NCBI RefSeq assembly: GCF_003148685.1
Contig: NZ_QGGR01000003.1
Coordinates: 186,001 to 250,000, forward strand
Source of the DNA: Actinoplanes xinjiangensis
GTDB taxonomy: Bacteria; Actinomycetota; Actinomycetes; Mycobacteriales; Micromonosporaceae
Direction of reading: 5' to 3'
Length of the DNA: 64,000 nt
The notes below the pieces were generated by a model. The model searched no databases. It had not been told where the DNA came from and saw only the letters and a list, made by a program, of their open reading frames with translations. This document shows positions 6,829 to 11,679 of this stretch, one piece after another. Position numbers and translations under genes: made by a program. Every line of letters starts with the position of its first letter. The stretch's first letter is position 1.

Positions 6829-8382
6829 ATGACCCCCATTCCGGACCGTGCCGACGTGGTGATCATCGGGGCCGGTCACAACGCTCTGGTCTCCGCGATC
6901 CTGCTCGCCCGCGCCGGGCTCGACGTCGTCGTGCTCGAGGCCGCGGGTGTGATCGGCGGCGCCACCCGCACCGAACACCCCTTCCCCAAGGTGCCCGGCC
7001 TCGGCCAGTCCACCGGCTCCTACCTGCTCGGGCTGATGCCGCCGGAGCTGCTGCGGACCCTCGACGTGGACATCCCCGTGCTGCGGCGCGACCCGCACTA
7101 CTTCCTGCCCGGGGTCGGCGCCGGTTCGCCGTACCTCCTGTTCGGCAGTGACGGCAAGGCCAACCGGGCGCAGCTCAGCGACCGGGACGCGGCCGCCGAC
7201 GAGGCGCTGGCCGTGGAGATCGGCGCGATCCGCGCCGATCTCGCGCCGGCCTGGCTGGAGGAGCCGACGCCGGTCGAGGAGATCGCCGACCGGCACATCC
7301 GGCCGCAGCTGCAGAGCACCTTCCTCGATCTGGTACGCGGTTCGGTCGCCGGCTACCTGGGCCGGTTCGGCTTCGCCAGTGAGCTGCTCGTCGCGATGTA
7401 CGCGGTCACCGACGGCCTGTCCGGGCTCAACGCGGGACCCGACGATCCGGGGACCGGGCACAACTTCCTGGTGCACAACATGTGCCGGCTGCCCGGTTCG
7501 GACGGGACCTGGCTGATCGCCGAGGGCGGCATGGGCACCGTGTCGCGGACCTTCGCCGACGCGGCCCGCGCCGCCGGGGCACGGATCTTCACGGATGCCC
7601 GGGTGACCTCGGTGACCGTCGACGGCGGGGCGGCCAGTGGGGTCGTGCTGGCGGACGGGCGGGCGGTCGACGCCCGGGTCATCCTCGGCGGCTGTGACCC
7701 GTACCAATTGATGGATCTCGTCCCGGATGGTGCTCTGCCCGCCGCGCTGACCGAGCGGATGGCCGCCGTCAAGCGCCCCGGCAGCACCCTCAAAGTCAAC
7801 CTCGCGCTGCGGGACCTGCCGGTCTTCGACTGCCTGCCGCCCGGCGCGCCGTCGCCGTTCGGCTCGACCATCCACCTGCTGCCCGGCAGCGGCTCGCCGA
7901 TGGCCAATCTGCGCGGCATGTGGGCGGACGTGCAGGCCGGGATCCTTCCGGCCGAGCCGACCATCGAGTGGTATCTGCACACCACCGTCGACCCGTCGCT
8001 GCGCGACGAGGCCGGACACCATTCCTCGGCGTTGTTCGTGCAGTCGGTGCCGTTCGAGCTGGCCGGCACGTCGTGGGACGAAGAGCTTCCGGGGTACGTC
8101 GACCGGCTGCTCGCCATCTGCGACAGGTATGCGCCCGGCACCTCGGACCTGGTCGCCGACGTGTTCCCGCTCACTCCGCCGGGGATCGAGCGGCATTTCG
8201 GGATCACCGGCGGGCACATCCACCACGTCGACAACACGGTCGCGTTCGACAAGCGGATGCCCTACGCCACCGGGCTGGACGGTCTCTACCACGGCTCGGC
8301 CGGGGCGCACCCGGCCGGCAGCGTGATCGGCGCGGCGGGCCACAACGCGGCCCGCCGCATCCTCAAGGATCTCGCCGTCTAA
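6829..8382 (+). CDS. Phytoene-desaturase-like FAD-dependent oxidoreductase (PYROXD2-like)
   Basis: A 517-residue protein with the dinucleotide-binding start DVVIIGAGHNALVSAILLAR and the matching C-terminal FAD contact (GLYHGSAGAHPAGSVIGAAG). This architecture belongs to the phytoene dehydrogenase/carotenoid isomerase superfamily. No phytoene synthase or other carotenoid gene is in the window, so it is more likely one of the generic NAD(P)/FAD oxidoreductases than a carotenoid enzyme. Its stop overlaps the stop of the convergent Rieske protein by four bases, leaving no room for a terminator. Confidence 0.8.
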   Translation: MTPIPDRADVVIIGAGHNALVSAILLARAGLDVVVLEAAGVIGGATRTEHPFPKVPGLGQSTGSYLLGLMPPELLRTLDVDIPVLRRDPHYFLPGVGAGSPYLLFGSDGKANRAQLSDRDAAADEALAVEIGAIRADLAPAWLEEPTPVEEIADRHIRPQLQSTFLDLVRGSVAGYLGRFGFASELLVAMYAVTDGLSGLNAGPDDPGTGHNFLVHNMCRLPGSDGTWLIAEGGMGTVSRTFADAARAAGARIFTDARVTSVTVDGGAASGVVLADGRAVDARVILGGCDPYQLMDLVPDGALPAALTERMAAVKRPGSTLKVNLALRDLPVFDCLPPGAPSPFGSTIHLLPGSGSPMANLRGMWADVQAGILPAEPTIEWYLHTTVDPSLRDEAGHHSSALFVQSVPFELAGTSWDEELPGYVDRLLAICDRYAPGTSDLVADVFPLTPPGIERHFGITGGHIHHVDNTVAFDKRMPYATGLDGLYHGSAGAHPAGSVIGAAGHNAARRILKDLAV

Positions 8383-9929
8383 CCCTCTTTACTGGCCCTG
8401 ATCTTGTGGCCGACGCCGGTCAGGCATCGGCCACTGGGCAGGTCGAACTTCCAGCCGTGCAGCTGGCAGGTGAGCACGTTGCCGTCGAGGACACCGAATC
8501 GGGACAGGTCGGCCTTCAGGTGCGGACAGCGCCTCTGGACCGTCCAGTCGCCGAACTGGATGTCCTCGGCGTCGACGGACTTCTCGTGCTCGTCGTACCA
8601 GCCCTCGGCGTACTGCAGGCGCTCCTCGGACAGACACTTGAAGAACGCGTACACGAACTCGTTGTACTGCCCGATCCGGGCCGCGGAGAAGCGGCAGGAC
8701 AGGAACAGCGAGTTCACCCAGTCGCCCTCGTCGATGAAGATGAGGTGCTCGATCAGCTCCCGCTGGGTGCGGAACCGGTAGCGGACCTTCTCGTCGGCAT
8801 ACGCCCGGACCTGCTTGCCCGGGAAGTCCACGACGATCGACTCGACCTCGTCGCCGTCGTACGACACCAGGTCGAAGCGGACCGGGCCGCCGACGCCCTT
8901 GGCCATGTAGAGCGACTCCTCGAGCAGCGGCTCGATCCGCTTCTTCAGCTCCTTGAGGACATCGATCTCCGGGTGCCGCCAGGACGCCTTCTCCGCCTCG
9001 ATGATCGGGCGCTTGCGCTCCCGCATCTCCTCCAGGTGCGCCTTCTTGTTGGCGAAGAACTCGTCGACCGGCGTCGGGTGCGTGGTGGTCTGCCTCGTGC
9101 CGCCGTCAGTCAGCTCGGTCACGCTGCCGGGCAGTTGGACGACCGCGTTGGTGCCGCCGACCTTCGCATACTCCGTCAGGAACACCGACTGGTCGGGGAA
9201 GATGTTGCCCTCGTCACCGTGGATGTCGTTGAACTGCCACAGCTCGTCGTCGAGGAAGCACGGCGGACCGGCGATCGGGAAGACGAAGTCCGCCTTCAGG
9301 TCGTCGATGTAGCGCCACGTACGGTCGAACTGGCGCTCCCGCTTCTGCTTGCCGAACGCGGTCTTCGCGTTGTCCGGCAGCTCGTAGACCATCGGATACC
9401 AGATGGCGCCGGAGAACTGCAGCATGTGGGCGTGCACATGGCCCAGCTCGTTGAACCGGGTCAGGTCCGCGGGACGGGCGTCGTTCTGGTTCAGGACGCG
9501 GATCCCGTCATACTCCACCCAGAGCGACGAGTCGCCGATCGGGCCGTCGGTCGGGCTGATCAGCGCCTGGATCATCACCTTCAGGCCGCCGTCGAGCTCG
9601 TGCACCTCGTCCGACTTCGTCCGCAGGAAACTGGTGAAACCCAGCGCCCGCAGCTCGTCCTCCAGCTGGCTCGTCGGATACTCCGGCAGCAGGACGGTCG
9701 CCTTCTTGTTGATGAACCTCTTCAGGTGCTCCGCGTCGAAGTGGTCCCGGTGCAGGTGGGAGACGTACAGGTAGTCGACGTCGCCGAGCGTCTCCCAGTC
9801 GAGGAGGGAGTTGTCCGGGAACGGGAACCACGAGGCGAAATACGCCGGATTCACCCACGGATCGCACAGAATGCTGCCGGCAGCGGTGTCGATCCGCATG
9901 CTCGCATGGCCGGTGCCCGTGATCCGCAC
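8379..9929 (-). CDS. Metallo-beta-lactamase-fold protein with C-terminal Rieske domain (CMP-Neu5Ac hydroxylase-like)
   Basis: The start is GTG at 9929, preceded by GAGGAG at good spacing, giving 516 residues. The N-terminal half is a UlaG-type metallo-hydrolase with SHLHRDHFD at residues 57-65. The C-terminus has a Rieske [2Fe-2S] signature, CPH at 468-470 and CQLH at 488-491. The combination resembles CMP-N-acetylneuraminate hydroxylase with domain order swapped (in CMAH the Rieske part is N-terminal). The substrate is unknown; no sialic-acid genes are visible nearby. Electron transfer to a metal-dependent oxygenase or hydrolase site is inference. Confidence 0.75.
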   Translation of the reverse strand: MRITGTGHASMRIDTAAGSILCDPWVNPAYFASWFPFPDNSLLDWETLGDVDYLYVSHLHRDHFDAEHLKRFINKKATVLLPEYPTSQLEDELRALGFTSFLRTKSDEVHELDGGLKVMIQALISPTDGPIGDSSLWVEYDGIRVLNQNDARPADLTRFNELGHVHAHMLQFSGAIWYPMVYELPDNAKTAFGKQKRERQFDRTWRYIDDLKADFVFPIAGPPCFLDDELWQFNDIHGDEGNIFPDQSVFLTEYAKVGGTNAVVQLPGSVTELTDGGTRQTTTHPTPVDEFFANKKAHLEEMRERKRPIIEAEKASWRHPEIDVLKELKKRIEPLLEESLYMAKGVGGPVRFDLVSYDGDEVESIVVDFPGKQVRAYADEKVRYRFRTQRELIEHLIFIDEGDWVNSLFLSCRFSAARIGQYNEFVYAFFKCLSEERLQYAEGWYDEHEKSVDAEDIQFGDWTVQRRCPHLKADLSRFGVLDGNVLTCQLHGWKFDLPSGRCLTGVGHKIRASKEG

Positions 9930-10072
9930 TTTGATCGCTCCTCTGCTTACGGCTTGCACAACCGCCTCTGCGGTTCTTGACCGCCTCGAAAGTACAGCCG
10001 GGTTGCTGCGGTTCGCCCGTCGACCCCGTGACAGACTGTTTCAGATCCACCATCGACTAGGAGGTCGCCACC

Positions 10073-10352: not shown

Positions 10353-10398
10353 TCGCATGCCTGATCTCACCGCCGGCTTCGCATGCCTGATCTCACCG
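10352..10398. repeat. 21-bp direct repeat at the 3' end of the DivIVA-like gene
   Basis: The 21-base sequence at 10352-10372 occurs again identically at 10378-10398, a 26-base period. The second copy contains the TGA stop of the minus-strand DivIVA-like gene; the first copy is a duplicated stop region lying between that gene and the terminator. It looks like a recent local tandem duplication. Confidence 0.85.
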
Positions 10399-11679
10399 GC
10401 GGCGCAGCAGGATGTCCTTCACCTCGCGCAGCGCGGCGTCGACCTCGGCCTCGAAGTAGCCGTTCGGCACCAGGCCGAACTGGAGCATGTCGAGATCGTT
10501 CTCGTTCACCGGCATCGGACCGCGGCCCGTCATCGCCTGCAGGATGCCCTCGAACAACCGGTCCACCTGCATCGGGTCGTAACCGCTGCCGAACCGGCGC
10601 GGCTGGAACGTCCGCCGCAACTGGTCCACCCGGTACAACTCGCCACCCGGCTCACCCAGCGGCGGGCCGAGCTGCGGCTGCTGCGGCTGCTGAGGCTGGC
10701 CGTAACCGCCGCCGCCCCCGCCGTACGGCGGGCCGCTCATCGGCGCGCCCGGCATCGGCGAACCCGGCATGGCCATCGGCGAACCCGGCATCGGGGCGCC
10801 CGGCATCTGCTGCCCGTAGCCACCGCGCGGATCCCGGTCCGGCATCCGGATCTCGGCGGTCATGTCCGCCTTGCCGTGCCGGCCCGCCTCGAAGCCGTCG
10901 TAGCCACCCTGGTCGTACCCACTCGGGTCGTAACCGGGCGGCGGGCCGGGACGCTGCGGCAGCTGCGACGGCGGGGGCTGCTGCTGCGGCTGCTGCTGGC
11001 CGTAGCCGGTCGGCTCGTCGTAACGCCCGTACGGGTCCGGGCCCGGCGGCAACTGCTGCTGACGCTGCGGCATCTGCGGCGGCATCATCCGGTCGTCGCG
11101 CATCGGCGCGGGCAGCCGCTCGGTCGGCGGCGACGCCATCTGGGCCGCCGGGTTCATCCCCGGGGCGCCGGGGCCACCCGGGCCACCGAATCCACCGGGA
11201 CCACCGCGGCCCGGCATGCCCTGCGGCTGCATGCCCTGGCCCTGCGGGAAACCCTGGCCCTGCGGGAAACCCTGCACCTGCGGGCCGGGGCCGGCGGGCC
11301 CACGGTCGAAGCCACCGCGGTCGAAGCCCTGGCTCTGGCTCATCGCCGGCGGGCCGGAGACAGAGCCGGCCGTCAGGCCGCTGCGCATCGAGTCGCGCAT
11401 CGGGTCCGACGCGGGACGGCCGCCCCGCTCCTCGAACTCGGCGAGCTGGCGCTCGACCCGGTCGAGATGCAGGTCGACCTGCCACTCGTCGTAGCCGCCG
11501 AACCGCACCCGGAAGACGACGTCGTGCACCTCCTGCGCACCGACCGGCGGACCGACCTGCTCACCGGCCAGGGTCGCCTCGACCCGGTCCAGGAACGCGT
11601 CGACCTCGTCGACCTTGTAGCCACGCCGCAGCGCACGCCTTCGGAAACGCTGCCCCTGACTCGTCACAACGTCTCCCAC
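10393..11679 (-). CDS. DivIVA-repeat protein with long Gly/Pro/Gln-rich linker
   Basis: A 428-residue protein starting at GTG 11679. Four copies of a DivIVA-like motif (GYxxxxVDxxLxxV) are visible: RGYKVDEVDAFLDRVEATL near residue 20, GGYDEWQVDLHLDRVERQL near 61, SGYDPMQVDRLFEGILQAM near 365 and NGYFEAEVDAALREVKDIL near 406. Between pairs lies about 250 residues of low-complexity sequence rich in Gly, Pro, Met and Gln. DivIVA motifs target curved membranes and polar growth sites in actinobacteria. The layout, two motifs at each end of a disordered linker, suggests a bridging or scaffolding protein, which is inference. It is not the main Wag31, which is coiled-coil and sits by ftsZ. Confidence 0.8.
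   Translation of the reverse strand: MGDVVTSQGQRFRRRALRRGYKVDEVDAFLDRVEATLAGEQVGPPVGAQEVHDVVFRVRFGGYDEWQVDLHLDRVERQLAEFEERGGRPASDPMRDSMRSGLTAGSVSGPPAMSQSQGFDRGGFDRGPAGPGPQVQGFPQGQGFPQGQGMQPQGMPGRGGPGGFGGPGGPGAPGMNPAAQMASPPTERLPAPMRDDRMMPPQMPQRQQQLPPGPDPYGRYDEPTGYGQQQPQQQPPPSQLPQRPGPPPGYDPSGYDQGGYDGFEAGRHGKADMTAEIRMPDRDPRGGYGQQMPGAPMPGSPMAMPGSPMPGAPMSGPPYGGGGGGYGQPQQPQQPQLGPPLGEPGGELYRVDQLRRTFQPRRFGSGYDPMQVDRLFEGILQAMTGRGPMPVNENDLDMLQFGLVPNGYFEAEVDAALREVKDILLRRR

Follow-up and report, generated by a model that had tools for sequence, protein, structure and literature searches.

A very probable orthologue of the N-acetylmuramic acid hydroxylase gene namH in Actinoplanes xinjiangensis

A gene in 64,000 nucleotides of Actinoplanes xinjiangensis DNA (contig NZ_QGGR01000003.1, positions 186,001 to 250,000; called the window here) is very probably an orthologue of namH. 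Its product is predicted to hydroxylate the N-acetyl methyl group of UDP-N-acetylmuramic acid (UDP-MurNAc) using O2, giving UDP-N-glycolylmuramic acid (UDP-MurNGlyc). Our own evidence consists of the domain make-up, the conservation of the metal ligands, profile-based family membership, the distribution of the gene and its single copy. The link from gene to function and the use of O2 are carried over by analogy from published work on mycobacteria, and the activity of this particular protein is a prediction. The original namH paper is reportedly that of Raymond et al. 2005.

Rv3818 is described as the namH orthologue of Mycobacterium tuberculosis, encoding the hydroxylase that N-glycolylates muramic acid (PMC10050696, PMC3605390, PMC6194230, PMC10234563). 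The enzyme produces N-glycolylmuramic acid for peptidoglycan (PMC10050696, PMC6194230), its substrate is given as UDP-MurNAc and its oxidant as molecular oxygen (PMC10234563), and it is reported to have a UlaG-type N-terminus and a Rieske C-terminus and to be non-essential in M. smegmatis (PMC10050696). Mycobacterial muramic acid can be either N-acetylated or N-glycolylated (PMC13041923). Rv3818 mutations are also listed in a study on iron-related genes (PMC10916221).

The gene, its domains and their ligands

The features of the gene are as follows.

8379..9929, minus strand: namH homologue, 516 aa, metallo-β-lactamase (MBL, UlaG-type) + SCP2-like + Rieske (ORF, translation, Pfam, homologues)
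9938..9944, minus strand: Shine-Dalgarno-like AGAGGAG, 8 bases 5' of the GTG start (read from the sequence)
9693..9926, minus strand: Pfam Lactamase_B_3, residues 2-79 (25.4 bits, cut-off 24)
9741..9758, minus strand: metal-binding motif H58-L-H60-R-D62-H63 (sequence, homologue alignment)
8589..8960, minus strand: SCP2_Rv3818 (PF25451), residues 324-447 (Pfam)
8418..8540, minus strand: Rieske [2Fe-2S] domain match, residues 464-504 (Pfam, 36.6 bits, cut-off 20.3)
8457..8528, minus strand: stretch from C468 to H491 with the Rieske ligands C468, H470, C488 and H491 (sequence, homologues)

The reading frame runs from 9929 to 8379 on the minus strand, with a GTG start, a TAG stop and 516 residues. 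A longer frame of 526 residues starting at 9959 is also in the list of open reading frames; the GTG at 9929 is favored because of the Shine-Dalgarno-like motif eight bases upstream of it. Codon positions 1, 2 and 3 have G+C fractions of 0.627, 0.383 and 0.942, as is usual for a high-GC coding sequence.

The earlier note on this DNA had described a UlaG-like metallo-hydrolase fused to a C-terminal Rieske cluster, and the Pfam matches at residues 2-79 and 464-504, together with the conserved motifs, bear this out. The Lactamase_B_3 score is only just over the Pfam cut-off, a Lactamase_B_2 match is also present under its cut-off, and no NCBIfam model scored above cut-off with the 516-aa protein. 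Structure matches of the MBL type extend to about residue 275-305, beyond the Lactamase_B_3 match. The Rieske ligands lie in the motif C468-P-H470-X17-C488-Q-L-H491. What the earlier note had missed is the middle domain, SCP2_Rv3818, which scored 171.1 bits against a cut-off of 28.2 and covered profile positions 1-119 of 119. Judged by sequence, it is this SCP2-like domain that identifies the family of the protein. The identification as NamH was made by way of a Pfam profile named after Rv3818 and of named relatives whose own status as NamH is putative.

Conservation of the ligands was examined in 110 homologue sequences. These were 107 from loci L001-L108 (hit at E 1e-10; L082 had no hit and was dropped) plus L109, L110 and L114; our own gene was counted twice (L081, L084), so there are 109 distinct sequences. 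HxHxDH is present in 109 of the 110, the exception (L108) being cut by a contig end. The earlier note had named loss of the Rieske ligands in close homologues as evidence against its reading; C-X-H-X17..21-C-X2-H was retained in all 110 sequences, and this check did not speak against the reading. Since close relatives with 83-97% identity make up 80 of the 110, the weight of this result rests on a diverse alignment of 29 rows, 26 of them at about 40-52% identity, from which the truncated L108 was left out. H58, H60, D62, H63, D128, D133, D150, C468, H470, C488 and H491 are invariant in that alignment. The conservation of the metal and Rieske motifs is not due to chance.

Relatives, distribution and gene neighborhood

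At least 583 relatives were found in named genomes, and the best 80 of these, with 83-97% identity, were analyzed. They include Actinoplanes, Paractinoplanes, Micromonospora, Asanoa and Phytohabitans, and we take the genera of these 80, Asanoa and Phytohabitans included, to be Micromonosporaceae. Identity to the A. philippinensis homologue is 97%. Another 13 matches came from plasmid records, and six of these span 80% or more of the query at 43.4-52.3% identity: Rhodococcus ruber (two), Nocardia farcinica, Tsukamurella tyrosinosolvens, Nocardia sp. and Microbacterium sp. Residues 1-514 are 50.8 and 52.3% identical to the two R. ruber records and 51.0% identical to N. farcinica, and full-length identity to the R. 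ruber, N. farcinica and T. tyrosinosolvens genes is 49.9-52.3%. Both Nocardia/Rhodococcus-type relatives that were scanned have the same Pfam domains as the window protein. In addition, eight genomes of the same order, all from one family (f2), match at 49-51% identity. The likeness to NamH consists of a UlaG-type MBL part, an Rv3818-type SCP2-like domain, a Rieske domain and conserved ligands, with full-length homology at about 50% identity to the Nocardia and Rhodococcus genes; mycobacterial NamH itself was compared by profile and description.

In the host's family, PF25451 occurs in 194 of the 200 sampled genomes; of the 184 good assemblies among them, 181 have it and three do not. Elsewhere it was found in 84/200 genomes of the order, 27/197 of the class and 26/296 of the phylum, these samples and that of the family overlapping, and in none of 14 control genomes. 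The genome of A. xinjiangensis has one copy; the only other match to the protein is a 44-residue Rieske stretch.

Several observations were made on more unusual relatives. Six of the 200 family genomes (G405, G455, G356, G397, G400, G416) have two PF25451 matches instead of one, and of the places listed, one in G397 and one in G455 lie in short open frames (310 aa and 270 aa). These could possibly be duplicates, fragments or assembly effects. Full-length NamH homologues with intact ligands and 40-47% identity are also present in three families of the same phylum outside the class (L098-L107). The annotation of the Microbacterium sp. plasmid (L111:5001-6758) splits its namH homologue into three CDS that overlap or adjoin one another, pointing to a frameshift in the gene or to errors in sequencing; N-glycolylated murein has been reported for four Microbacterium species (PMC10757982). 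On six plasmid records of haloarchaea, five from Halobaculum and one from Halolamina, there is a gene for an MBL protein with 26-28% identity to NamH residues 1-221. The one from Halobaculum salinum (L112:4001-5359, 453 residues) has neither a Rieske nor an SCP2-like domain, and its gene has glycosyltransferase and Gfo/Idh/MocA genes close by. It is possibly a sugar-modifying relative of NamH.

Published reports on cell walls can be set beside this distribution. namH is reported for Nocardia and Rhodococcus (PMC10234563), and for Micromonospora, Salinispora and Stackebrandtia both a putative namH homologue and walls with MurNGlyc are described (PMC6194230). The acyl type of Verrucosispora rhizosphaerae is glycolyl (PMC5754459), and we found the gene in two further Verrucosispora species (L064, L076). 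For two species, Catenulispora acidiphila and Rubrobacter radiotolerans, a NamH homologue is listed and evidence for MurNGlyc is absent (PMC6194230), and so the homologue and its product are not tied together everywhere. Our literature search on MurNGlyc in Actinoplanes itself found no usable statement.

The earlier note had proposed an uncharacterised oxygenase with a nucleotide-linked or phosphorylated substrate. Two parts of this proposal hold, in that the protein is probably an oxygenase and its substrate probably nucleotide-linked. The word uncharacterised does not, since the family is that of NamH (Rv3818). An uncharacterised oxygenase resembling CMP-Neu5Ac hydroxylase (CMAH), with another nucleotide sugar or a phosphorylated compound as its substrate, would also have MBL and Rieske domains with conserved ligands, and the homologue carriers for which no MurNGlyc is reported (PMC6194230) would be consistent with it. 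However, the full-length family makes MurNGlyc in mycobacteria, the host's family has reports of glycolyl-type walls, and the gene is present in a single copy, so that the genome would then be without NamH. We consider such an enzyme very improbable, and it was dropped on the basis of the Rv3818 profile in Pfam and the namH papers. NamH, our preferred identification, is an already known enzyme and an ordinary, nearly universal one in this bacterial family.

The neighborhood of the gene was compared among the 69 of the best 80 named loci that have full flanks. A DivIVA-domain gene and rlmN are present in all 69, the DivIVA match often being just a conserved end, an FAD oxidoreductase in 64 and a BrkB-type gene in 52. 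In the window, this gene lies at 10393-11679 on the minus strand, upstream of namH and on the same strand; its product contains two DivIVA-domain stretches (TIGR03544), and its middle is long and rich in Pro, Gly and Gln. The CrtO/amine-oxidase-like FAD oxidoreductase (6829-8382, plus strand) is convergent with namH, and their ends overlap by 4 bases. The Rhodococcus and Tsukamurella loci have a neighborhood different from this one of DivIVA-domain gene, rlmN and FAD oxidoreductase. Seven genes of the window were looked for at the N. farcinica, Rhodococcus and Tsukamurella loci, and none was found there. Among the annotated neighbors in Rhodococcus and Tsukamurella are serS, SpoIID/LytB and genes for a HAD hydrolase and a lysophospholipid acyltransferase, with an N-acetylmuramoyl-L-alanine amidase in addition in Rhodococcus; the N. 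farcinica record carries no annotation at its namH locus.

Of the few genes flanking namH, none is an obvious reductase or electron-transfer partner. The FAD oxidoreductase was considered for this role and is an unlikely partner: it is CrtO/amine-oxidase-like, scores below the NCBIfam cut-offs and lies on the opposite strand. It was also not found in the flanks of five of the 69 relatives with full flanks, nor at the three Nocardia, Rhodococcus and Tsukamurella loci. Its place beside namH in the other 64 is expected from shared descent.

Proposed reaction and the fold of the presumed catalytic part

The substrate of NamH would be UDP-N-acetylmuramic acid, a peptidoglycan precursor of the cytoplasm, and perhaps later soluble precursors too. 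Hydroxylation of the N-acetyl methyl group would yield UDP-N-glycolylmuramic acid, and O2 would supply the oxygen. An NAD(P)H reductase or ferredoxin would reduce the C-terminal Rieske [2Fe-2S] cluster, and this would hand its electrons on to iron bound in the N-terminal MBL fold; there O2 would be activated and the methyl group oxidized. The SCP2-like middle domain may help to hold the substrate or join both metal domains. We infer the electron path, the iron in the MBL site and the role of the middle domain.

A variant compatible with the main reading is that the substrate is UDP-MurNAc-pentapeptide rather than UDP-MurNAc. In protein-interaction tests, M. tuberculosis Rv3818 interacted with MurF only among the Mur ligases; the authors' interpretation was that it acts on the last of the soluble precursors (PMC3605390). 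Since UDP-MurNAc is elsewhere given as the substrate (PMC10234563), we regard the later step as rather unlikely. This question concerns which step the enzyme acts on and leaves the identity of the gene unaffected.

The Rieske domain of CMAH stands N-terminal to its MBL domain. This order is reversed in the window protein, with the MBL match at residues 2-79 and the Rieske match at 464-504, in a comparison made from papers and description. As NamH and CMAH are both known relatives, the reversal is a difference between two known proteins. The resemblance to CMAH seen by the earlier note has a basis in print: CMAH is stated to be distantly homologous to the prokaryotic UDP-N-glycolylmuramic acid genes, with mono-oxygenase reactions in both cases (PMC6481270). 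The mammalian enzyme converts an N-acetyl methyl group to N-glycolyl on a nucleotide-linked sugar, as proposed here on a different sugar nucleotide, and is stimulated by NADH, cytochrome b5 and its reductase; its structure was unreported as of the 2016 review (PMC4819959).

An AlphaFold2 model was built on 33 sequences (the window's and 32 from the 80 close loci), with a mean pLDDT of 66 and a pTM of 0.64. Confidence in the model is middling; useful matches come from the MBL part alone, and the placement of the Rieske domain relative to it is beyond the model. In a Foldseek search of the PDB, the first three matches by E-value were CmlA (4jo0, 5kik) and FrsH (8a90), with low whole-chain TM-scores of 0.32-0.34 and rmsd of 7.4-8.6. 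FrsH was also the top PDB hit for the MBL part in two sequence searches (E 1.5e-5 and 9.7e-6). The sequence profile gave an E near 0.08 for CmlA with the MBL part and near 0.007 for NdmA with the Rieske part. The window protein resembles CmlA and FrsH in its MBL fold, matched at low TM-score, and in the HxHxDH motif, which is seen for FrsH in the sequence alignment. CmlA and FrsH are not known to have a Rieske domain and act on carrier-bound amino-acid substrates.

VIA-align bore mainly on the MBL part and barely covered the SCP2-like and Rieske parts. It gave 3rpc a Z of 19.2 (rmsd 3.2, 230 aligned), 5kik a Z of 17.5 (3.8, 228) and 8a90 a Z of 16.8 (3.2, 224). Some of the rows named metallo-β-lactamase among the structure matches are presumably UlaG. 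Hydrolases, including NAPE-PLD and RNases J, ranked level with or above CmlA and FrsH, and for that reason the fold rank by itself is no proof of an oxygenase. These many hydrolase and nuclease matches, which reach the Z values of CmlA and FrsH, and the generic lactamase domain in Pfam would suit a hydrolase in which the Rieske domain is an accessory redox sensor. That no oxygenase is involved is nevertheless hardly credible, since published namH work reports hydroxylation (PMC10050696, PMC10234563) and the best Foldseek and sequence matches to the MBL part are diiron hydroxylases.

For the predicted hydroxylase, a diiron site in the MBL fold is plausible, going by the conserved HxHxDH motif and the fold matches. 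The Rieske stretch weakly matches the Rieske non-haem iron (ring-hydroxylating) oxygenases of the NdmA type. At profile level, no Pfam match to a ring-hydroxylating catalytic domain was found at E up to 1, and there is no room for one because MBL-fold matches cover residues 1-305 and PF25451 covers 324-447. In contrast to the ring-hydroxylating oxygenases, the presumed catalytic site of the window protein is in the MBL fold. NamH, and by extension CMAH, may be a CmlA/FrsH-like diiron monooxygenase, with a UlaG-type MBL fold, a fused Rieske relay and no catalytic domain in common with classical Rieske oxygenases; we hold this tentatively, at somewhat under an even chance. Among the titles found by our literature search, none was on NamH as a diiron enzyme or on a NamH structure, though such work may still exist in print, and in the results of two PDB sequence searches with the protein, no molecule bore the name NamH or CMAH.

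Meaning for the cell wall and for hydroxylase chemistry

What had appeared to be an unknown oxygenase becomes, very probably, a known cell-wall enzyme whose family profile is found in 194 of the 200 genomes sampled from the host's family. Work on mycobacteria reports effects of muramic acid N-glycolylation on resistance to lysozyme and β-lactams and on recognition by NOD2 (PMC6194230, PMC10234563). The worthwhile question is the mechanism of the MBL/Rieske hydroxylases, and the Actinoplanes NamH could serve for such chemistry. If true, the diiron reading would mean a class of Rieske-fed oxygenase apart from the classical Rieske oxygenases.
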